Source: an uncultured Verrucomicrobiota bacterium (GTDB lineage Bacteria; Verrucomicrobiota; Verrucomicrobiia; Opitutales; Opitutaceae). From it: a stretch of 64,000 nucleotides of DNA. This document shows positions 1-62,023 of this stretch, piece after piece. Position 1 is the stretch's first letter. Each line of letters opens with the position of its first letter. The notes beneath the pieces were generated by a model, which worked only from the letters and a program-made list of their open reading frames with translations, was not told the origin of the DNA and made no database searches. The position numbers and the translations under genes were made by a program. The stretch covers positions 124,001 through 188,000 of the forward strand of contig CAIVDS010000026.1 of assembly GCA_903904685.1 (NCBI GenBank), written 5' to 3'.

Positions 1-761
1 TTCGGAAAGAGCCGATCGAGTTCGTGGTTGATGACCTTCGCGAGCACGGGGAACGGCTTCACCGAGTCGTCATACGGCGCGGGAAAACCGCCGCCGATGT
101 CGAGGAGGTTCATCTTGGTGTAGCCTCGGGCGCGGGCCTCCTTGAAGATGTTGGCGGAGAGGCTGAGCGCCTGCACGTAGTTGTCGAAGTTCGTCGTCTG
201 GCTGCCGACGTGAAAGCTGACGCCCTCGACGGTGAGTCCGAGCTTGTCGGCGGCAAGGATGAGGTCGACAGCCTCACCGGGAGGCGCACCGAACTTGGAC
301 GAGAGTTCGACCATCGCGCCGGTGTTGGGAACTTTCAAGCGCAACACGAGCCCGGCGTCGGGTGCATGCCGTTTGATTTTTTGTATTTCCTCGAGATTGT
401 CGAAGGTGACGAGCGGCTTGTATTGGTTGAGCTCCTCCAGCGTCTCGGTGGGCTTCGTGGGATTCGCATAAATGATCTTGTCCCAAATCCAGTCCTGCCG
501 CGCCTTCGCCGGAAGGTTCTTGATGTTGTCGTGGACGATCATGAACTCCGGCATCGAGGCCACGTCGAAACTCGCGCCCTCCCTGTAAAGCGTGCGGACA
601 ATCGCGGGGTCGGGGTTGGCCTTGACGGCGTAATATACCTGCACGCGCGGCAGATGCTTCCGAAACAGGCGGTAGGCTTTCCGCAGAGCATCGTGATCCA
701 CCACGAAAAGCGGTGTACCATGTTTTTTGCCGAGTTCTTGGAGCCGCTTGAGTGAGATCAT
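1..761 (-). CDS. PLP-dependent ornithine/lysine-type decarboxylase (fold III), 3' end cut by window edge
   Basis: Group IV (alanine-racemase fold) decarboxylase that should convert ornithine or lysine to putrescine or cadaverine in the cytosol. Visible: the PLP-lysine motif YYAVKANPDP with Lys47, the HVGSQ segment, and the glycine-rich DIGGGFPAPYD that holds the PLP phosphate. The reading frame is open from the ATG at 761 to the left edge (about 253 residues of a normal 370-400), so the C-terminal catalytic Cys is not seen. Homospermidine synthase lies directly upstream on the same strand, which favours an ornithine decarboxylase feeding putrescine to it. Carboxynorspermidine decarboxylase is the main alternative, but the YAVKAN motif fits the ornithine/lysine group better. 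Confidence 0.85.
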   Translation of the reverse strand, partial: MISLKRLQELGKKHGTPLFVVDHDALRKAYRLFRKHLPRVQVYYAVKANPDPAIVRTLYREGASFDVASMPEFMIVHDNIKNLPAKARQDWIWDKIIYANPTKPTETLEELNQYKPLVTFDNLEEIQKIKRHAPDAGLVLRLKVPNTGAMVELSSKFGAPPGEAVDLILAADKLGLTVEGVSFHVGSQTTNFDNYVQALSLSANIFKEARARGYTKMNLLDIGGGFPAPYDDSVKPFPVLAKVINHELDRLFP

Positions 762-38482: not shown

Positions 38483-39494
38483 TCACTCTCCCGCGCTCGT
38501 CACCGGCGGCACCGGTTTTCTCGGGCGGCGACTTGTCGACCGCCTGCTTGCGCAAGGCCGCCCCGTCACCGTGCTCGGGCGAACCCCCGCGCAGGATCTT
38601 GAGGCCCGCGGCGTGCGTTTCGTGCGCGCCTCGCTCGACGACGAGGCGGCGGTGCGCGCGGCCTGCCGCGGGATGGGCACGGTTTTTCATGTCGCGGCGA
38701 AAGTCGGCGTGTGGGGGCGTTACGATGATTTTTTCCGCGCCAACGTGCTCGGCACGCGCGCGATCATCACCGGCTGCCGCGAGCACGGGGTCGCCCGGCT
38801 GGTTTACACGAGCACGCCGAGCGTGGTTTACAACGGCCGCGATCTCGCCGGGGCGGACGAATCGCTCCCGCTCACGACCGATTGTCCGAGTCCGTATCCG
38901 CTGACCAAGGCCATTGCCGAACGCGAGGTGCTTGCGGCCAACTCGGTGGCGCTGTGCACGGTGGCGTTGCGGCCGCACCTCATTTGGGGCGCGGGCGATC
39001 CTCATCTGGTGCCGCGCGTGCTGGCCCGCGCGCGGGCCGGGCGCCTGCGCATCATCGGCTCCGGCGCCAACCGCGTGGACATGGTCCACGTTGAAAACGC
39101 CGTCGATGCGCACCTCGCCGTGGAAAACGCGCTTTCCGGGGCGGCGTCGGGGCGGGCGTATTTTATAACCAACGGCGAGCCGGTCGTGCTGTGGGACTGG
39201 ATCAACGGCCTGCTTAAGGCGCTCGGCGAGCCGCCGGTCACGAAGCGAATTTCCCTCGGGGCGGCCGCGGCTGTCGGCGCGGTGTGCGAGGCGACTTGGC
39301 GGGTCCTGCCGCTTAAGGGCGAGCCGCCGATGACGCGCTTTGTCGCCGCCGAACTGGCGAAGGACCACTGGTTTTCCATAGAGGCGGCGAGGCGCGATCT
39401 TGGCTACATGCCGCGCGTAAGCATGGCGGAAGGCACGGCGGATTTGGTGGTGGCGTTGAAACGCATGCCGCGAGGGGTATCCGCCACGCTTTAG
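38430..39494 (+). CDS. oleD: OleD-type 2-alkyl-3-oxoalkanoate reductase (extended SDR)
   Basis: A 354-residue NADPH-dependent reductase of the extended SDR family. It carries VTGGTGFLGRRL, FHVAAKVGVWGRYDDFF, the active YxxxK in YPLTKAIAE, and GNG-type nucleotide-binding context. OleD reduces the beta-keto acid made by OleA, giving OleC its substrate. The ATG at 38430 overlaps oleC by 53 bases; a TTG at 38466 (overlap 17) is the alternative start. It ends in TAG, showing that amber is a real stop here. No oleA or oleB is in the window. Confidence 0.83.
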   Translation: MSATNPTPNGITLASTFDHSPALVTGGTGFLGRRLVDRLLAQGRPVTVLGRTPAQDLEARGVRFVRASLDDEAAVRAACRGMGTVFHVAAKVGVWGRYDDFFRANVLGTRAIITGCREHGVARLVYTSTPSVVYNGRDLAGADESLPLTTDCPSPYPLTKAIAEREVLAANSVALCTVALRPHLIWGAGDPHLVPRVLARARAGRLRIIGSGANRVDMVHVENAVDAHLAVENALSGAASGRAYFITNGEPVVLWDWINGLLKALGEPPVTKRISLGAAAAVGAVCEATWRVLPLKGEPPMTRFVAAELAKDHWFSIEAARRDLGYMPRVSMAEGTADLVVALKRMPRGVSATL

Positions 39495-48009: not shown

Positions 48010-48121
48010 ATAACATGACTTAGTCTAAATGAGTGAACACGATCTAGAAACACACGTCATACAGAGTATCAGGATGAGGCGTTGACCGACGATGCCGCCG
48101 GCGCTTTGTTGTCCAGTTCTC

Positions 48122-49990
48122 ATGCTTACTATCGCAGACGTTTCCAAGTCCTACGGCACCCGCGAACTTTTTTCCGACGTCTCGCTTTTCATCGCGCGCA
48201 CCGACCGGCTTGGTCTCATCGGCCCCAACGGCGCAGGCAAAACCACGCTCTTAGGACTCATCCTAGGTGAAGAGAAGCCCGACACCGGCACCATCGAGTG
48301 GGAACGTGGCGCCGACTTCGGTTACCTGCCGCAGGAAAGCGCTCCCGCCGGCAACGAAACCATCCTCCACATCGCGACCAGCGGCAAACAGCTCGAGCCC
48401 AGCGACGACAACTACGACATCGACTACACGCTCGAACCCCGCGCCCGCAAAATCCTCGATGGTCTCGGCTTCAAACCCGGCGACGCCGACAAACTCGCCA
48501 AAACCTTCTCAGGCGGCTGGGTCATGCGCGCCCACCTCGCCCGCCTCCTTGTCGCCGAGCCCGCCCTTCTCCTCCTCGACGAACCCACGAACCATCTCGA
48601 TCTCGAGGCGCTTCTCTGGTTCCAGGATTACCTGACGCGTTATCCGGGCGGCCTCGTGGTCATCTCCCATGATCGCGCGTTCCTCAACGCACTCTGCACC
48701 GGTATGCTCGAACTGCGCGCCGGTTCGCTCCACTACTATCACGGCAACTACGACAATTTCCTGACCGAGAAAGAGGCACGCAAGCACCAGCAGGCGGCCG
48801 CCTTCAAGAACCAGCAGCGTGAGATCGCCCACTTGCAGGTCTTCGTCGACCGCTTCGGCGCCAAGGCCTCCATGGCCTCCCGCGCGAAGTCCAAGGAGAA
48901 ACAAATCGAGCGTCTTAAGGAGGTCGCCGTCGAGGAACCCACCGAGGAGCTGCGAAAGATGAACTTCAAGTTCCCGCAGCCTCCGCGCTCCGGCCTGAAG
49001 GTCATCGAACTCGAACACGTCCAGCAGGCCTACGGCGACCACGTCGTTTACAAGGATCTCAACTTCACCGCCGAGCGCGGCCAGGGCATCGTCCTCATCG
49101 GCCCCAACGGCTCCGGCAAATCCACCCTCCTCAAGATCCTCGCCGGCGTCATCCCGATCCAAGGCGGCACGCGCGAACTCGGCAGCAACGTTGTTCCCGG
49201 TTACTTCGCCCAGAACCGTCTCGATAACCTGAACGCCGAAGCGACGGTGTTCGAAAACGTGATGGAGTTGCGCACCAACGAAAACCAGCTCACCGAACAG
49301 CAGGCCCGCGCCATCCTCGGCGCGTTTCTCTTCCGCAAGGACGACGTGCACAAGCCCGTCTCTGTCCTCTCCGGCGGCGAAAAAACCCGCCTCGCTCTCG
49401 CCCGCATCCTCGTCCGCCCGCCCAACCTGCTCCTCATGGACGAGCCGACGACGCACCTCGACATCCAGTCGATCGACGCGCTGGTCATGGCCCTTAAGAA
49501 CTACGAGGGCACGCTTATCTTCATCTCCCACGACGTGCACTTCATCAGGACGCTCGCGAAAAACGTGCTCCACGTCCACAGCGGGCGCCTCACGCACTAC
49601 GCCGGCGACTACGATTATTACCTGGATAAATCCAAGTTAAGCGACGCCCGCGCCGCGATCACTGCCGGTTTCACCGACGCCCGCCCCGTGCAAAAAGCCG
49701 AACCAAAGAAAGCCACCAACCCCGTGTCAGGCGTGGTAAAACCGAAGCCCTCCACAAACGAGATCAGAAAATTCCGCGAACACGTCGGCGTGTTGGAAAA
49801 AAAGGTCGTCGATCTGGAGGCCAAGCAGTCCGAGATCACCTCCGCGCTGGAAGACCCGCAGACCTACGCCGACAAGGGCAAGTTCCACCACTTCAACCTA
49901 GAGCTGAGCGCGACCGTCAACCTCATCACCAAGGCGACCGCTGAGTGGGAAGAAGCAGCCTCCAAGTTGACCGAGATGGAGCAGGCCTGA
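48122..49990 (+). CDS. ABC-F family ATPase (ribosome-associated type)
   Basis: A 622-residue soluble protein with two ATPase cassettes and no permease. Walker A GPNGAGKTT and GPNGSGKST; signatures FSGGWVMRAHLARLL and LSGGEKTRLALARIL; Walker B DEPTNHLDL and DEPTTHLDI. A Lys/Arg linker (ASRAKSKEKQIERL) sits between. C-terminal coiled coil with KKVVDLEAKQSEITSAL. Likely acts on ribosomal E site (Uup/YheS type). The ATG at 48122 starts the first cassette. Confidence 0.93.
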   Translation: MLTIADVSKSYGTRELFSDVSLFIARTDRLGLIGPNGAGKTTLLGLILGEEKPDTGTIEWERGADFGYLPQESAPAGNETILHIATSGKQLEPSDDNYDIDYTLEPRARKILDGLGFKPGDADKLAKTFSGGWVMRAHLARLLVAEPALLLLDEPTNHLDLEALLWFQDYLTRYPGGLVVISHDRAFLNALCTGMLELRAGSLHYYHGNYDNFLTEKEARKHQQAAAFKNQQREIAHLQVFVDRFGAKASMASRAKSKEKQIERLKEVAVEEPTEELRKMNFKFPQPPRSGLKVIELEHVQQAYGDHVVYKDLNFTAERGQGIVLIGPNGSGKSTLLKILAGVIPIQGGTRELGSNVVPGYFAQNRLDNLNAEATVFENVMELRTNENQLTEQQARAILGAFLFRKDDVHKPVSVLSGGEKTRLALARILVRPPNLLLMDEPTTHLDIQSIDALVMALKNYEGTLIFISHDVHFIRTLAKNVLHVHSGRLTHYAGDYDYYLDKSKLSDARAAITAGFTDARPVQKAEPKKATNPVSGVVKPKPSTNEIRKFREHVGVLEKKVVDLEAKQSEITSALEDPQTYADKGKFHHFNLELSATVNLITKATAEWEEAASKLTEMEQA

Positions 49991-51320: not shown

Positions 51321-51398
51321 TTTTTTTTAATGCCTTTCCTTGCGGTCCTGCGCAAGCCCCCGACTTGCCCCGCGCTTAAAACCCCGCAACGTAGGCTC

Positions 51399-52358
51399 AT
51401 GAAACCCCAAGTCGTGGTCGTCGGCAGTTTCGTTCAAGATATTACTTGGCGGTGCGCCGCCTTCCCGAAGCCGGGTGAGACCGTGATCGGCAATTTCACC
51501 ACGGGGCCCGGAGGCAAGGGCTCCAACCAGGCGGTCGCAGCAGGTCGCGCAGGTGCGTCCACATTTTTCATCGGCGCAGTCGGACGCGATGCCTTTGCAG
51601 CAGAGGCCAGGGCCTTCTACTCCGCCGAGGGCATCGCCGCCTGCTTCGTTGAGAGATCAAAACATGCGACCGGCACCGCCGGCATCCTCGTAAATGCCAC
51701 CGGCCAGAACGAGATCATCGTCGCCCTCGGCGCCAACGCCCACCTCGCAAAGACTGACATCGACCCAAAACTCATCAGCGGGGCAAAGATAGTCGTCACC
51801 CAGCTCGAATCCAATCTTGCGACCACCGCATTCGTTTTAAAAACCGCTCGCTCCGCCGGCGTCATCACGGTCCTCAATCCGGCGCCCATGCGTGCGGATT
51901 TTGACCCGGCCATCTTGAAGCACGTTGATGTGCTCATCCCCAACGAGGCCGAGTTCACCACACTCGTAAACCGGCTGCCGGCGACCGGACAAAAAGACTT
52001 CACCGCAACAGAGCTGAGCCGGCTCTCCAACGACGCCCTCCACGCACTCTGCCGCACCCTCGGACCGGCCGTCGTGATTGTCACGCTCGGGAAACAGGGC
52101 TGCCTCGTGTCGCAAGCGTCCGGTCCCATCTTTATTCCGGCGCACAAAGTGAAAGCAATCGACACCACCGGAGCGGGCGACGCTTTCGTGGGCGGCTTCT
52201 CGGCAGGTTTTGTGGAATTCAACGGCGACATCGTCGCGGCGGCGCGCTTTGGCGGCGCTGTGGCGGCGCTTTCGGTCACCAGACAAGGTACAGCCCCCTC
52301 AATGCCCACCCGGCGCGAACTCGAAAAGTTTCTAAAAGAAAAAACTCTACCATCATGA
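51399..52358 (+). CDS. PfkB-family sugar kinase (ribokinase-like)
   Basis: A 319-residue kinase with PfkB signature GGKGSNQAVAAGRAG (N-term) and DTTGAGDAFVGGF, where Asp is the catalytic base. Beside deoA and deoC it could phosphorylate ribose or deoxyribose. The start is the ATG at 51399; its stop overlaps deoC by 4 bases (ATGA). Confidence 0.9.
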   Translation: MKPQVVVVGSFVQDITWRCAAFPKPGETVIGNFTTGPGGKGSNQAVAAGRAGASTFFIGAVGRDAFAAEARAFYSAEGIAACFVERSKHATGTAGILVNATGQNEIIVALGANAHLAKTDIDPKLISGAKIVVTQLESNLATTAFVLKTARSAGVITVLNPAPMRADFDPAILKHVDVLIPNEAEFTTLVNRLPATGQKDFTATELSRLSNDALHALCRTLGPAVVIVTLGKQGCLVSQASGPIFIPAHKVKAIDTTGAGDAFVGGFSAGFVEFNGDIVAAARFGGAVAALSVTRQGTAPSMPTRRELEKFLKEKTLPS

Positions 52359-53062
52359 CTCTCACGCCCGCCCAACTGGCCGCGATGCTCGATTCAACCA
52401 ACCTCAGGCTCGACGCCTCTGAAGCCGATATCGAGCAGCTCTGCATCGAAGCCGCCACGCACCGCTTCGCTTGTGTCATGATTTACCCGACCAGCGTGCT
52501 ACTGGCCGCCCGCATCCTTGCCGGCACCGGCCTGCGCATCGGCACCGTGATCGGGTTTCCCAGCGGACGTTTTTCCACCGGAGCCAAGGCCGCCGAGATC
52601 ACCGCCTCCCACAAGGCCGGAGCGCAGGAGGTGGACATCGTGATGAATTATCCCGCGCTCCTCGGCGGCCACTCCGTCGCAGTGGCCACCGAAGTCGCCA
52701 CGCTCACCCACCTCGCCCACAAGCAGGGGCAACTCATCAAAGTGATCGTGGAAACGTGTTTTCTCGACGACGCCGACCGGCTCGAGGCTTTTAAAATCTG
52801 CGAGGACGCCGGCGCCGACTTCATCAAAACCTCCACCGGCTTCGGCACCGCCGGCGCCAAGATCGCCGACATCGCCGCCTGGGTCGCCGCTCGGCGCGAG
52901 CCCATCCAGCTCAAGGCCTCCGGCGGAATCAAAACCCTAGCCGATGCCCGCATGTTCATCGACGCGGGGGCTACCCGTCTCGGCACTTCAAGCGCCGCCG
53001 CCATCGTTGCGGAACTCGCAGGTGCCTCCGTCAGCGAAAGCGCAACCGGCGGCAGTTATTGA
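52355..53062 (+). CDS. deoC: Deoxyribose-phosphate aldolase
   Basis: A 235-residue class I aldolase splitting deoxyribose-5-phosphate into glyceraldehyde-3-phosphate and acetaldehyde. The Schiff-base Lys lies in DFIKTSTGFG and the second Lys in IQLKASGGIK. EVDIVMNYPALLGG is also conserved. Coupled to the kinase. Confidence 0.95.
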   Translation: MTLTPAQLAAMLDSTNLRLDASEADIEQLCIEAATHRFACVMIYPTSVLLAARILAGTGLRIGTVIGFPSGRFSTGAKAAEITASHKAGAQEVDIVMNYPALLGGHSVAVATEVATLTHLAHKQGQLIKVIVETCFLDDADRLEAFKICEDAGADFIKTSTGFGTAGAKIADIAAWVAARREPIQLKASGGIKTLADARMFIDAGATRLGTSSAAAIVAELAGASVSESATGGSY

Positions 53063-54945: not shown

Positions 54946-55643
54946 ATGCGCGCGAGCAGCTTGTTGCCCCGGCTTATTTTAACCTGCGCCTTGCTTGGAC
55001 TGGCGGTGACGCGGTCGCAGGAGGTGCAACAGCACGGCCTCGTTTTTGAAGCCTGGGTGCACGACACGTTTTTCGACGGCTACCAACCGCCCGGCTACAC
55101 GCAAAAGTGGGACATTCCCTCCGCGGCCAACAAACACCATGGCGGAATTCCCGTGAACGCCAAGGCTGCCAAGGATCACACGCCCGTCGATCTCGGCGAT
55201 GCGCTGAGGCAATTCGACATCGCCGAACCATTCATTCTCGTGATCGGCTACTGGCGGCAAGACGAAGCCAAAAAACGTTTCGTCAACATCATCGCACCCA
55301 ACCGGCGGCATGGCGCAAACTCTGGAGCCCTGTCACTCGTGCCGACCTCGAGCGCCTCGACGCCGTCATCAAAGACCGCAACCTCGAGCCCGCCGAGGCG
55401 CGACGACAAGCCCAAGCCATCAAAAATGCACCGCCGTTCACCGAAGCGATTATCGTCGTGAATCCCAAAATCGACTCGAAAACCCAGCGCCGCCTTCAAT
55501 GCAGCCTGCGCTTCGAAGACGTATTCAAATACCTTGCTCCCGAAAGCGATCCGCTCCCCCGTGAAAACCCGTCGCTTTGGGGTGTACCGTTTACTACTGC
55601 GGTGCCATCGCCTCCGCGCACTTTCGAGATGGCAACGCCCTGA
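54946..55643 (+). pseudogene. Exported orphan protein, frameshifted
   Basis: A signal-peptide-like start (MRASSLLPRLILTCALLGLAVTRS) is followed by HGLVFEAWVHDTFFDGY...KWDIPSAANKHHGGIPVNAKAAK. At about 55298-55315 the homologous frame shifts by one: IIAPNRRHG becomes PAAWRKLWSPVTRADLERLD..., ending FEMATP. The second part reads KIDSKTQRRLQCSLRFEDVFKYLAPESD. The start at 54946 is 83 bases from the divergent ABC exporter. Family not recognised; a one-base change would restore about 230 residues. Confidence 0.6.
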
Positions 55644-55751
55644 ACCGAGTCCGGCAATGCTCGTCTACCCTCTCGGGGTTGCCACTTCGTGCATACGTGC
55701 CAAGACGAGCAGCAACAGGCTTTTTCGAAGCGGGCGCGCTCGATATAAGTC

Positions 55752-57311
55752 CTAGGATTTTGGAGAAGGGGGAACGGGAGCGATAGCTGAAGCGGCAGGC
55801 GTGCCGATAAGAGGGACGAACTGGTCGATGATCGGCTGGATGGCATCGACCCAGATTTGATAGCCCTTGGCTGAAGGATGGAGGAGGTCGGGCATGATTT
55901 CCTTGCTCAGGGTGCCGTCCGGCTCGAGAAGTTTTTCGCCGATATCGATGAAAATCACTTTCTTGCCGTCAGCCAAAACGGGGATGATTTTGTTGATTTC
56001 CTTGATCTTGCCGCGGACCTGATCGGTGGGTTTTTCGCTGCGGGGAAGGATGCCCATAAGGATGAGCGTGGCGTCGGGGCAGCGCTTGCGGTATTCCGCG
56101 ACGTCGGCCTTGATGCCGCCGGCGATTTGTTCCGCCGTGCAACCGCCGGTGTTGTTGGTGCCGATGAGCAGGACGATGACTTTGGGATGGAGGCCATCGA
56201 CTTGGCCGTTCTGGACGCGCCAGAGGAGACCTTGGGTGGAGTCGCCCGAGACGCCGAAGTCCACAGCGTTGCGCCGGGCGAAATACTTGTTCCAAATAGG
56301 GCCGCCGCCGGCTTTCCATCCGGCGGTGATGGAGTCGCCGTCGAAGACGAGATCGACCCGGGGCATTTTCCGGGCGTCATCCATGGCTTGTTGAAACCCG
56401 TTTAGCCGACCCATCGGCGGCACGGGGATTATCGCGGAGTTCCCACCGGGAGGCAAGGGCGGCTGCGGCTAGGTGACAGTGCCACCAACGATGGTAGAAG
56501 GCGAAGGCTTGGGCTGTGCGGCTGCGGGAGCCGAAGCGCTTGCGACCGTGGTGGTGCCGGGCGGGAAGAACTGGTCGATGACTGGCTGAATGGAATCGGC
56601 CTAGATTTTATAGGCTTGAGCCGAGGGACGGGGGAACATGAAGTCGCACAGGATCTCTTTGGTCATGACGCCGTCGGGCTTGAGGAATTTATCTCCAAAA
56701 TCGAGGAAGATCACTTTTTTCCCATCGCCGAATGCGGAGATGATCTTGTTGGTTTCCTTGATTTTGAGGCGCATCGCATCAGAGGGAAGTTCACGACGAG
56801 GGAAGATGCCCTGGAGAAGGATGGTGGCTTCGGGACAACGTTTTTGGTATTCTTGGATGATCGCCTTGATCCCTTCGGCGACTTGTTCCGGTGTGTTGGA
56901 TTGTAGATTACTGCCGCCGATAAGAAGGACGATGAGCTTGGGATGGAGCTTATCGACTTGGCCGTTTTGCAGCCGCCAGAGAACATTTTGCGTGGCGTCT
57001 CCCGGATTGGCAAAATCGAAGGCGTTGAGATTGGCGTAACGGGGACCCCAGATGCCACCGTGATCACCCTTGGGGTTGCCATTAATCGAATAGGTATCGC
57101 CGTCGAAAATGAGGTCGACCTTGCCGATCTTCCTGGAGGCTTCCAGAACTTGCTGGAAATGGTTGAGCCAGCCTACGCACGGCCCCACGGGAATGGCGGC
57201 GGGGTTGGCGTCGGGAGGAAGGGGAGGTGTGGGCCAAGTGAGGACCCCTCCGGCAAGAGCATCTGCGGTTATGGTGAATCCGACGAGGGCGGAGAGAAGA
57301 AAACGCTTCAT
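55752..57311 (-). pseudogene. Double-domain SGNH/GDSL hydrolase with two amber codons
   Basis: Paralogue of 57485-59026 with signal peptide and two SGNH domains. A single open frame runs from ATG 57311 to TAG 55752, broken only by TAG at 56601-56603 and 56469-56471. Both replace conserved Trp codons: IWADAIQ of the paralogue is I-stop-ADSIQ here, and TITWPAPP is TVT-stop-PQPP. Domain 1 has GDTYS in place of GDS and lacks the catalytic His (DFMFP). Domain 2 is intact (FDGDSIT, GTNN, DLLHP). Genuine amber use elsewhere excludes a code change. Confidence 0.8.
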
Positions 57312-57484: not shown

Positions 57485-59026
57485 CTAAGATTTGGCTGGG
57501 GCGGGCGCGGCGGGCGGCGGGACGAACTGGTCGATGATCGGCTGGATGGCATCGATCCAGACTTCGTAGCCGGGAAGACTCGGGTGGAGGAAATCGCCCG
57601 TCATGGGCGGCCCATAATTACCGTCGGCATCGAGGAGTTTGTCACCGAAATCAACGTAGAAGATTTTTTTGCCGTCGGCGCATTTGGAGACGATCTGGTT
57701 GATGGCTTTAATTTTGGCCCGGAATGGGTCGTTGGCCTTATTGCCGCGCGGCAAGATACCGAGCACAAGAACCGCCGCATCGGGGACATGCTTCCGGTAT
57801 TCGTTGACTCCGGCCACGACACCTCCGGCGATTTCTTCCACCGAGCACGAATACATGTTGTTGGTGCCAATGAGAAGGACGACGAGCTTGGGATGGAGCC
57901 CATCGACCTGGCCGTTCTGGACTCGCCAGACAACGTCCGCGGTGGAGTTTCCTGAGATGCCGAAATCAAATGCGTTGAGCTTGGCGTAATGTTTGTTCCA
58001 TAGGCCACCCGCTCCGCCTCTCCAAGCATCTGTGATGGAGTCGCCGTCGAAGACGAGATCGACCTTGGGCATCGCATGGGAATCGTCAATGTTCTTTTGG
58101 AAACGTGGCAACCAACCCATCTGCGGCATGGGGATGACGGCTGAGTTGGCTCCGGCTGGAAGTGGCGGCGCGGGCCAGGTGATGGTTCCACCGCCGATTA
58201 GCTTGTCGGGCACGGCGGCGGTGCCGGAAGCAATCACAGGAATCGGAATCGGCGCTGAAGGAAGGGTGCTCGGGGGAAAGAATTTGTCGATCGTGGACTG
58301 AATTGCGTCAGCCCATATTACATGCCCCTTTCCCTGGGGATGAACGAAACCGGCAAGGACTGTCTGGGAGATGGTGCCGTCGGGCTCGAGAAGTTTGTCG
58401 CCGAAATCGAGGTAGATGACTTTCTTGCCATCGCCGAAGCCAGAGATGATCTGGTTGACCGCCTTGATCTTGGCGCGAAAGGGATCGGTGGGCTTTTCTC
58501 CGCGCGGCATGATACCCGTGAGCAGGATGGTCGCCTCGGGAACCCGCTTCTGATACTCCGCGACGATCGCCTTGATGCCCTCTGCGATTTGTTCCGGAGT
58601 ATTGGCGCCGGGATTAAAGCCGATGTTACTCATGCCGACCTGGAGGACAACCAGCTTGGGATGGAGGCCATCGAGCTGTCCGTTTTGCAACCGCCAGAGA
58701 ACGGCTTGGGTAGGGTCGCCCGAGCAGCCGAAATCAAGCGCCTTGATCCGGTTGAACCGCGACCACATGCCGCCGGTGGGAGCATAATGGCCCGAGGTGA
58801 TAGAGAGCCGGTCGCCGTCGAAGATGAGATCGACTGTTCCCATCTTCCGGGCTCTTTGCAGGTTGAGTTCGAAATAATCCAACCAACCGGAGATCGGGGA
58901 GCGCCCAACTGCCGCCTTGTTTTCTCCGGGTGCCAGAGGCGGCGAGGGCCAGGTGATGGTCCCCCCGGCAAAAGCAGCCAAGGTTAAGGCGAATCCCATG
59001 AAGGCAGAGAGAAGAATACGGCGCAT
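57485..59026 (-). CDS. Exported double-domain SGNH/GDSL hydrolase
   Basis: A 513-residue exported protein with two tandem SGNH (GDSL-type) domains, each opened by GGTITWPxPPL (22-31 and 279-289). The C-terminal domain has all blocks: DGDSIT (Ser330), GTNN (Asn390) and DFLHP (Asp478, His481), as in PAF acetylhydrolase-like esterases, likely removing acetyl groups from glycans. The N-terminal domain reads GDRLS in block I, GMSN in block III and GFVH in block V (Asp lost), so it is probably not active. Signal peptide 1-20. Tandem with a decayed copy. Confidence 0.82.
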   Translation of the reverse strand: MRRILLSAFMGFALTLAAFAGGTITWPSPPLAPGENKAAVGRSPISGWLDYFELNLQRARKMGTVDLIFDGDRLSITSGHYAPTGGMWSRFNRIKALDFGCSGDPTQAVLWRLQNGQLDGLHPKLVVLQVGMSNIGFNPGANTPEQIAEGIKAIVAEYQKRVPEATILLTGIMPRGEKPTDPFRAKIKAVNQIISGFGDGKKVIYLDFGDKLLEPDGTISQTVLAGFVHPQGKGHVIWADAIQSTIDKFFPPSTLPSAPIPIPVIASGTAAVPDKLIGGGTITWPAPPLPAGANSAVIPMPQMGWLPRFQKNIDDSHAMPKVDLVFDGDSITDAWRGGAGGLWNKHYAKLNAFDFGISGNSTADVVWRVQNGQVDGLHPKLVVLLIGTNNMYSCSVEEIAGGVVAGVNEYRKHVPDAAVLVLGILPRGNKANDPFRAKIKAINQIVSKCADGKKIFYVDFGDKLLDADGNYGPPMTGDFLHPSLPGYEVWIDAIQPIIDQFVPPPAAPAPAKS

Positions 59027-59311: not shown

Positions 59312-62023
59312 ATGAGTGTGGCCAAGGGGTGCATCCTCTTTTTGGCTATCATTCTCTGCCTTTTGCCTGCGAATGCCGCAAGGAAGCTGATTTTTGATGG
59401 CGGCATCCATATTGCGTACACGATGCCGCAGGATGGTAATCTCACTTTGGGATTATACGGCAAAGAGGGGAAACTATTGCGCTGGCTGGTGCAGGATCAA
59501 TTCCGTCATGCAGGTGATCATCAAGTGGCCTGGAACGGTCTCGACCAGTGGGGCAAACCCGTGCCCGCAGGCGACTACAGCCTGAAAGCCATTTACCACG
59601 CTCCACTCACCACCGAATACCAGATGGCGGTGTGTAATCCAGGCACGCCGCCTTGGCCGACTTCTGACGGAAGGGGCGACTGGCTCTGTGATGAAGCGAA
59701 TCCACAAGCGGCAGTCACCGATGGTCAATGGGTGTTCCTAGCCTCGCCTGGAAGCGAAAGGGGATGCTCCATCATCGCACTCGACGAAACCGGACAACGC
59801 CAATGGGGCACGCAGGAACCTAGGCACTTTCACCCACGCAGCCTTTCCCTGGCCTTGGATGGGGATAATCTCTACGCACTTTACTCAGGCCCCGAAACGC
59901 CGGATGCCGACCGCCATCCCGGAGCGAAAAATACCTACGGAAGAGCCGTGCTGGTCTGCTTTGACAAGCGAACCGGCAAGCTGGCCAAATTCAGCCGAGG
60001 GAACCTCATCGACCGCCTTGCGCCGTGGATTTATAATACCGGCATCTGGGAGCATCTCCCGGAGTTTTCCCTCAACCGCATCGCTACATGGTCCTATAAG
60101 GAGGATAAGATTTCGTGGCTCTGGGACTTGCGGAACGACAAATCCTTCAGCCCCGCCACCTACGCCGGCCAACCCCGCTACGCATGCACCGATGTGGGGG
60201 AATCCACCAACGCATTGGGCATCGCCGCCGTTGGTGGCAAACTCTACGTTTCGCTTCATCACGACAACAAGCTTCTGGTTGTTGACGCCACGACAGGTAG
60301 GCCGACGGGTGAGGAAATAGCTTTGAACGCCCCGGCAGGTCTGTGCGCGACTGCTGACGGCCACCTTCTGGCCATCAGCTCAACGCAGGTCGTAACAATA
60401 AATCCGGCTACCCAAAAGATCACTCAATTGATCGGCTCAAATCTGGTCGCCCCCAGCAACCTTACGACCGACCGGGATGGAAACATCTATGTGAGCGATT
60501 GGGGTGCTTCATTTCAGGTCAAGGTGTTCGACCGCGAGGGACACTTCCTGCATGCCATCGGCAAGGAAGGAGGACGCCCTTGGGTCGGCAAGTGGGATTC
60601 CAGTGGCATGTTGGTGCCGCGTGGCATCGCCGTGACGGCCAAAGGCAAGCTGTGGGTGGCCGAGGACGATGGCACACCCAAGCGGGTGAGCGTCTGGGAC
60701 GCAAAAAGCGGAGTATTTCTCGAAGACTATATCGGTCCGACTCCCTACGGCGGTGGAACCTACTTCTGGATCGATCCCAAAAACCCGGAGGCTGTGAACG
60801 CGGAAGGCGCGCGCTTCAAAGTCGATTACACCAAGAAAACCTACACTCACGAAGCCATCGCCTATCGGCGTCAGAACCGTGACGATCCCTTCACGCCCAA
60901 CGGACATAATCTTGGTGGCTATCAGGTGAGGATTCTCTACCGCAACGACCACGAATACGCCTTCGTCAACACCCAGCCCAATATGGTTTCCATCCTGCAA
61001 CGACAGGGCGACGTTTACAGGCCCGTGGCGGCGCTTGGCGCCATCCGTCGCAACGGGAAGTCCGTACTCGACGGAGATGGCACGGGGGTTGTCCTCTGGG
61101 ATAGCGATGTCGGTTACCGCGTCTACAACGGCTTTTATCCTGAATGTTTCCAAGGACACGGCGGCGACAACTATACATGGACCGACACCAACGGAGACCA
61201 CCAGGTACAACCCTGGGAAATGCGTTGGGCTCCAACCGTGACGGGAGCCCAGACCGCCGCGCAACCCTATCGGGAAGGGCGGCAAGGGACATGGGCGACA
61301 AGTTATTGGGGAACCGACATTGCGCCCGACTGGAGCCTCTTCTTCGCCGGAAGATACAGCGACCGCCTCGCCATTTACCGGCTCGCGCCCAGAGGATGGA
61401 CAGACTCCGGAGCGCCGATCTACGACATCGCCGACGCAAAACCAATCATCTTTGATGCCCGCAACAATGACATCAACGGGCTTCATGTTACCGCAGACGG
61501 AAAGCTCATCGTCTCCTACAACTTCGAATCGAAACACTGCCCCGACGCGATGCGCTGTTACGATCTGGATGGACGCGCACTCTGGGCGATTGCCATGCCA
61601 AAGCGACTGGCGGGGACGAACGTCCACGCCAGCAATGCGGTTTACGATTTTCAAATCCAAGGTCTGGGCGATGTCGTCTGCACTTGGCTTTACCACGGCA
61701 GCAGTCGGCCTTTCTTGATCACTTCGGATGGTCTTTACGTCGGTACGCTCCTGGATGACACCCTGCTGGCCCGCCTCCTCCATTCTCTCAATATTTCCAC
61801 GGGGCTCTACAACGGAACGATCTTCGATTCGGCGCCGACCGGTCCCACGGCCCTGTGGAGCGAATCCGCCAAATACTTTTACCAAAGTGCGGAAGGTAAT
61901 TGCTACATCATCAACGGCGGCAGCCAGCAGGAATACATCTTCAAGATCAAGGGACTGGAGGCTCAATCCGTCGGTCGCTTCAACCTCGATCTTACGCTGA
62001 CCCGATCCTCTCGCAACCCATGA
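59312..62023 (+). CDS. Large exported beta-propeller protein with FlgD-like Ig module
   Basis: A 903-residue protein with signal peptide (MSVAKGCILFLAIILCLLPANAA), then a FlgD/FlgA-like Ig module (LTLGLYGKEGKLLRWLVQDQFRHAGDHQVAWNGLDQWGKPVPAGDYSL). The rest is NHL/YVTN-type propeller blades with DRDGNIYVSDW, GKLWVAEDDGT and GHLLAISS patterns. Enzyme residues are not recognised; it may bind or process polysaccharide. Upstream 285 bases are AT-richer and gene-free. It is divergent from the SGNH genes. Confidence 0.75.
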   Translation: MSVAKGCILFLAIILCLLPANAARKLIFDGGIHIAYTMPQDGNLTLGLYGKEGKLLRWLVQDQFRHAGDHQVAWNGLDQWGKPVPAGDYSLKAIYHAPLTTEYQMAVCNPGTPPWPTSDGRGDWLCDEANPQAAVTDGQWVFLASPGSERGCSIIALDETGQRQWGTQEPRHFHPRSLSLALDGDNLYALYSGPETPDADRHPGAKNTYGRAVLVCFDKRTGKLAKFSRGNLIDRLAPWIYNTGIWEHLPEFSLNRIATWSYKEDKISWLWDLRNDKSFSPATYAGQPRYACTDVGESTNALGIAAVGGKLYVSLHHDNKLLVVDATTGRPTGEEIALNAPAGLCATADGHLLAISSTQVVTINPATQKITQLIGSNLVAPSNLTTDRDGNIYVSDWGASFQVKVFDREGHFLHAIGKEGGRPWVGKWDSSGMLVPRGIAVTAKGKLWVAEDDGTPKRVSVWDAKSGVFLEDYIGPTPYGGGTYFWIDPKNPEAVNAEGARFKVDYTKKTYTHEAIAYRRQNRDDPFTPNGHNLGGYQVRILYRNDHEYAFVNTQPNMVSILQRQGDVYRPVAALGAIRRNGKSVLDGDGTGVVLWDSDVGYRVYNGFYPECFQGHGGDNYTWTDTNGDHQVQPWEMRWAPTVTGAQTAAQPYREGRQGTWATSYWGTDIAPDWSLFFAGRYSDRLAIYRLAPRGWTDSGAPIYDIADAKPIIFDARNNDINGLHVTADGKLIVSYNFESKHCPDAMRCYDLDGRALWAIAMPKRLAGTNVHASNAVYDFQIQGLGDVVCTWLYHGSSRPFLITSDGLYVGTLLDDTLLARLLHSLNISTGLYNGTIFDSAPTGPTALWSESAKYFYQSAEGNCYIINGGSQQEYIFKIKGLEAQSVGRFNLDLTLTRSSRNP

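Follow-up and report, generated by a model that had tools for sequence, protein, structure and literature searches.

Gene B, one of two tandem SGNH hydrolase genes in an uncultured bacterium of the Opitutaceae, is best read as a recent pseudogene, a reading that we hold to be quite probable. The DNA analyzed was a 64,000-nucleotide stretch of contig CAIVDS010000026.1 (assembly GCA_903904685.1, positions 124,001 to 188,000), hereafter the window. Direct observations are two stops inside the frame, an intact copy, the grouping of the domains in a tree, little or no extra decay, and a broken neighboring gene. As in a recent pseudogene, the frame is disabled while its homology to the intact copy continues. 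An earlier note on this DNA, made from the sequence alone, had proposed that two Trp-to-amber changes recently silenced one paralogue; the proposal remains the best supported, given the short domain 2 branch of gene B and its intact motifs. The features are listed below (window coordinates).

57485 to 59026, minus strand: SGNH gene A, intact tandem paralogue, 513 amino acids (frame, Pfam, alignment)
about 58966 to 58271, minus strand: domain 1 of gene A (Pfam, alignment)
about 58189 to 57518, minus strand: domain 2 of gene A (Pfam, alignment)
55752 to 57311, minus strand: interrupted SGNH gene B; frame of 520 codons, two of them internal TAG, with PF13472 matches on either side of the stops
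57252 to 57311, minus strand: probable signal peptide of gene B, codons 1 to 20 (read by eye)
56562 to 57251, minus strand: domain 1 of gene B, matching the SGNH family but lacking the catalytic motifs (GDTYSI, GGSN, FMFP; Pfam, alignment)
56601 to 56603, minus strand: internal TAG 1, codon 237, which cuts off the end of domain 1 (alignment)
56469 to 56471, minus strand: internal TAG 2, codon 281, at the Trp of a TITWP-type stretch at the start of domain 2 (alignment)
55806 to 56486, minus strand: domain 2 of gene B, with its catalytic motifs preserved (GDSIT, GTNN, DLLH; Pfam, alignment)
54946 to 55643, plus strand: unrelated neighbor gene, function unassigned, broken by a 7-base deletion (DNA alignment against seven relatives)

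Gene B runs on the minus strand from an ATG at 57311 to a final TAG at 55752 (520 codons, including the final stop). Translation confirmed the earlier claim that this frame is open except for TAG at 56601-56603 and 56469-56471 (codons 237 and 281), and neither a frameshift nor a third internal stop was found. It aligns with gene A over its whole length without a frameshift at 57% identity, a match far beyond chance. Both TAGs face a Trp of gene A in this alignment (IWADAIQ and TITWPAPP), as had been stated. Reading the alignment by eye, we find the Trp at the TAG 1 site in all 19 of the other domains (16 outgroups plus 3 at this locus); its invariance across the 16 outgroups was also computed. 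The Trp at the TAG 2 site is kept in the three other domain copies at the locus and in the closest outgroup (L081) and is less conserved than the first, since two aligned single-domain relatives lack it. The G+C content of the SGNH pair and of gene 59312-62023 is 0.57 to 0.58, versus 0.614 for the window.

Each of the two genes encodes two SGNH-type domains and a probable signal peptide (recognized by eye). Both halves of gene B and domain 2 of gene A matched PF13472 above the cut-off, the match of domain 2 in gene B lying entirely downstream of TAG 2. The residues that we take to be catalytic in the SGNH blocks (block I Ser, block III Asn, and block V Asp-x-x-His) are present in domain 2 of both genes, with motifs GDSIT, GTNN, and DFLHP in gene A and GDSIT, GTNN, and DLLHP in gene B, the latter set being that reported earlier as intact. 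In domain 1 of both genes, the catalytic motifs of an active SGNH enzyme are not intact: GDRLSI (gene A) and GDTYSI (gene B) have a common two-residue insertion ahead of the Ser, block III reads GMSN (A) or GGSN (B) with its Asn missing from both, and block V has lost its Asp in A and its His in B. Domain 1 still matches the family profile PF13472 despite these missing motifs. The earlier description of a double-domain SGNH hydrolase thus stands for domain 2, which has the catalytic residues, but not for domain 1, which lost them in both copies. This loss had been missed, as had W27R in domain 2 of gene B (a loss, confined to B, of a Trp found in 16 of 16 outgroups) and the frameshift in the neighbor gene. 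By sequence, domain 2 of gene B comes nearest, among solved structures, to the catalytic subunits of platelet-activating factor (PAF) acetylhydrolase Ib (3dt6; E value, 3.5e-34); NCBIfam assigned no family to gene A or to either half of gene B. As an observation in its own right, domain 1 of the two genes (58966-58271 and 57251-56562, minus strand) is a degenerate domain kept through gene duplication.

In an unrooted tree that combined the four domain copies with 16 outgroup domains, the two domain 2 copies grouped together (99%), and both domain 1 copies were split from all other domains (98%). By this grouping, the two-domain form predates the gene duplication. The two-residue insertion and the loss of the block III Asn are common to both domain 1 copies and therefore most likely predate it as well; block V lost different residues in A and B, presumably afterward.

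The domain 2 branch of gene B has a length of 0.22, versus 0.44 for gene A. Over 41 columns invariant among the 16 outgroups, domain 2 differs in 5 columns in B and 7 in A (6 and 10 in a looser 51-column set), three outgroup-invariant domain 2 columns are changed in both, and B is closer than A to 12 of the 16 outgroups. For domain 1, the 41 invariant columns give 11 differences in B (one of them the stop) and 9 in A, and the looser column set gives 14 and 11; slight extra decay in domain 1 of gene B is possible. In view of the shorter domain 2 branch and the fewer changed columns in B, the stops are young relative to the duplication. By these measures, gene B was constrained for most of its history; they are no evidence of constraint after the stops arose. 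In a codon model, omega did not differ significantly between A and B. The model gave no date for the loss because synonymous changes were saturated, and two branch times sat at their bound in the domain 2 fit; it was set aside, and timing was based only on amino acid branch lengths and invariant columns.

Recoding of TAG to Trp is unlikely. The earlier note had already argued against it from amber stops at 39494, 47468, 55752, and 57485, all four of which read TAG, and the release factor, tRNAs, stop usage, and family matches point the same way. RF1 is present above the curated cut-off. Infernal detected 42 tRNAs, and ARAGORN read an anticodon in 42 of 42; the proposed search for a TAG-reading tRNA found CUA in 0 of these 42, an incomplete set without Ile or Asp tRNA. 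tRNA-Trp is single copy (anticodon CCA), and a search with its own sequence found no second tRNA-Trp gene, the two other sites (75% identical) both being tRNA-Arg genes. TAG ends 28 of 266 open reading frames sampled from 490,431 bases (at least 200 codons and passing a coding filter). The suggested count of in-frame TAG elsewhere in the genome, a partial survey, gave 0 among 105 listed matches, which contained two stops (one TGA and one TAA). These matches were to PF13472 (34), PF00005 (44), PF00884 (5), PF00593 (4), and the NHL-type neighbor protein (at least 18, a lower bound with 16 of 42 candidates scored); they include the window's own genes, and the gene B TAGs fall outside its PF13472 matches. 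On the presence of RF1, the tRNAs without CUA, TAG stop usage, and the family matches without TAG, genome-wide recoding was rejected. In the available part of a report that screened more than 250,000 genomes, the five new bacterial codes described all involve changed arginine codons, and stop-to-Trp inferences in yeasts are judged erroneous (PMC8629427).

Two scans for in-frame stops were also tried and rejected. The codon-usage scan of the sampled stretches returned 172 candidates, of which many looked by eye like antisense frames, and its six-frame version returned 66, many resembling neighboring genes in one frame (by eye). TAG 2 passed the threshold of the six-frame version and TAG 1 failed it (downstream score, 0.04). 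Since the candidates were mixed and TAG 1 fell below the threshold, the scan yields no clean base rate. Elsewhere, an ABC transporter domain match (G000 C88:8976-9410) has one internal TAA.

The broken neighbor gene (54946-55643, plus strand) faces gene B tail to tail and sits in two frames. DNA alignment against seven relatives showed a 7-base gap in the window only; by manual count, it falls between 55292 and 55293. When the second half of the neighbor gene was used to search 37 genomes, matches came from this genome, 7 of the 12 other genus genomes (G001, G003, G004, G005, G006, G009, and G010), and, weakly, G046; both halves lie in one open frame in 7 of 7 matching genus relatives. The ABC transporter gene (54862-53117) is open and adjoins the neighbor gene in 4 of the 7 relatives' stretches. 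Those seven stretches, of which one spans just 5.4 kb, yielded neither the SGNH pair nor the NHL-type gene. Comparison with relatives shows open frames for five nearby genes (48092-49990, 51320-50004, 51387-52352, 52355-53062, and the ABC transporter gene). A comparison with L123 put a stop inside the 51320-50004 frame, most likely upstream of its start by coordinates, and a stop in relatives of 51617-52375 was judged to be an antisense shadow of 51387-52352 and dropped. Two adjacent, unrelated broken genes fit local relaxed selection beside a lineage-specific segment and also fit a local assembly problem. On the other side of the SGNH pair, 59312-62023 (plus strand) encodes an NHL/FlgD_ig-type protein with at least 18 matches in this genome; of the 55 other genomes searched, a single one had a match (E value up to 1e-20). 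This may be a lineage-specific expansion.

This genome holds 34 PF13472 matches, so redundancy is possible. Among the matches listed, none in the 12 other genus genomes has both domains in one frame, and the closest within the genus, single-domain proteins of G004 and G006, match domain 2 at 53%. A contig scan of further genomes gave 12 loci with matched spans of one-domain length in 12 of 12 (L086 at a contig end), and a phage collection gave four weak matches (identity, at most about 32%), none covering 80% of the query. In a wider set of 56 genomes, one 505-amino-acid frame (G024 C72:68244-69434) contains two weak SGNH matches (21% identity), and contig C7 of G053 carries two SGNH matches separated by about 340 bases, so SGNH proteins in tandem or with two domains may occur elsewhere too. 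Another SGNH copy (L078; G000 C54, about 1 to 600, minus strand) has a frame that breaks shortly after GTNN near a contig end. Literature searches found nothing on tandem duplication of SGNH hydrolases with a catalytically inactive domain or on an SGNH PAF acetylhydrolase in Verrucomicrobia.

In the proposed history, a tandem duplication would have copied an SGNH esterase, probably secreted, that had a working domain and a degenerate one. Only after both copies had long evolved under constraint would two nonsense changes have struck the middle of copy B. Ribosomes beginning at the normal start would now terminate at codon 237 and yield a shortened domain 1, devoid of catalytic motifs, while domain 2 would be missing; gene B presumably makes no domain 2 product. 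Copy A and other SGNH genes of the genome could cover the function, a redundancy that may have allowed gene B to be lost.

The two stops are alike and closely placed. For two random nonsense changes in gene B, the probability is 0.004 to 0.017 (by transition bias) that both are Trp to TAG, about 0.18 that both are TAG, 0.011 that both fall in codons 232 to 286, and 0.16 that they lie at most 44 codons apart; these tests and the codon interval were picked post hoc, after the data had been seen. It is mainly for these same-type, linker-bracketing stops that readthrough and fission are kept at low probability. A reading in which the pair of Trp-to-amber sites flanking the linker is tolerated or retained, the sites tuning or splitting the esterase while readthrough or an internal start still supplies a little domain 2, is in our view quite improbable. 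Leaky readthrough as such, by which near-cognate reading or an undetected suppressor would let the ambers reduce but not abolish the two-domain protein, seems very improbable. It would suit two stops of the same codon at the same residue, a domain 2 without extra decay, and a tRNA list that lacks Ile and Asp and is thus incomplete, but RF1 is present, no CUA tRNA was found among the 42, the single tRNA-Trp reads CCA, two serial ambers would multiply the loss, and the conservation of domain 2 is mostly older than the stops and bears little on the time since. Readthrough is favored by a report of bacterial in-frame stops under purifying selection, but the part of that source used here also finds that such stops tend to be short-lived in evolutionary terms (PMC7918605). 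We give slightly less credence still to gene fission, in which domain 2 would now be a separate, unsecreted enzyme from an internal start. Both stops lie within codons 232 to 286, and wholly past TAG 2 come the PF13472 match of domain 2 and possible starts at 56456 (TTG), 56423 (GTG), and 56414 (ATG); against this, the domain 2 product would have no signal peptide by eye, no clear ribosome-binding site precedes the internal starts by eye (genes A and B likewise have none), and TAG 1 truncates domain 1 at its end, something that a clean split would not require.

An assembly or consensus error, with the two TAGs and the nearby 7-base deletion being local base-call or strain-mixing artifacts of a 114-contig assembly, is unlikely, and we weigh it above the other alternatives. 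Three disablements fall within about 1.3 kb (55292-56603) in two unrelated, otherwise conserved genes, as such an error could produce. However, the contig (C26) is 231 kb long, the genome (3.23 Mb) is listed as 99.98% complete with 1.73% contamination, and the five nearby genes are open. Two independent same-type substitutions in one gene would also be an unusual error pattern for short reads. We retain recent pseudogenization of gene B as the probable reading. A real loss would be an ordinary event, the death of a redundant tandem copy in an environmental bacterium. The locus also carries a caution, as two in-frame ambers at Trp positions can mimic recoding when the release factor, tRNAs, and other genes argue otherwise. 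Were readthrough or fission true, the locus would tie stop codons to enzyme control.

Gene B can be set beside three known systems. Like the retained stops of PMC7918605, in the part of that source used here, it has in-frame TAG in an otherwise conserved bacterial coding frame; those stops are common to at least two species, whereas the stops of gene B occur in no second genome among 13 genus genomes, including this one. With the PF13472 SGNH/GDSL hydrolases, including PAF acetylhydrolase Ib, genes A and B have in common the block I, III, and V motifs of domain 2, and they differ in having a probable signal peptide, two domains, and a domain 1 without catalytic motifs. Compared with the recent bacterial pseudogenes surveyed in PMC522871, as far as the accessible portion of that survey goes, gene B is unlike them in that both stops are Trp-to-TAG changes around a linker, a tandem copy is intact, and the next gene is broken, but it resembles them in the features by which they are described, namely, homology that runs through in-frame stops and few disablements.
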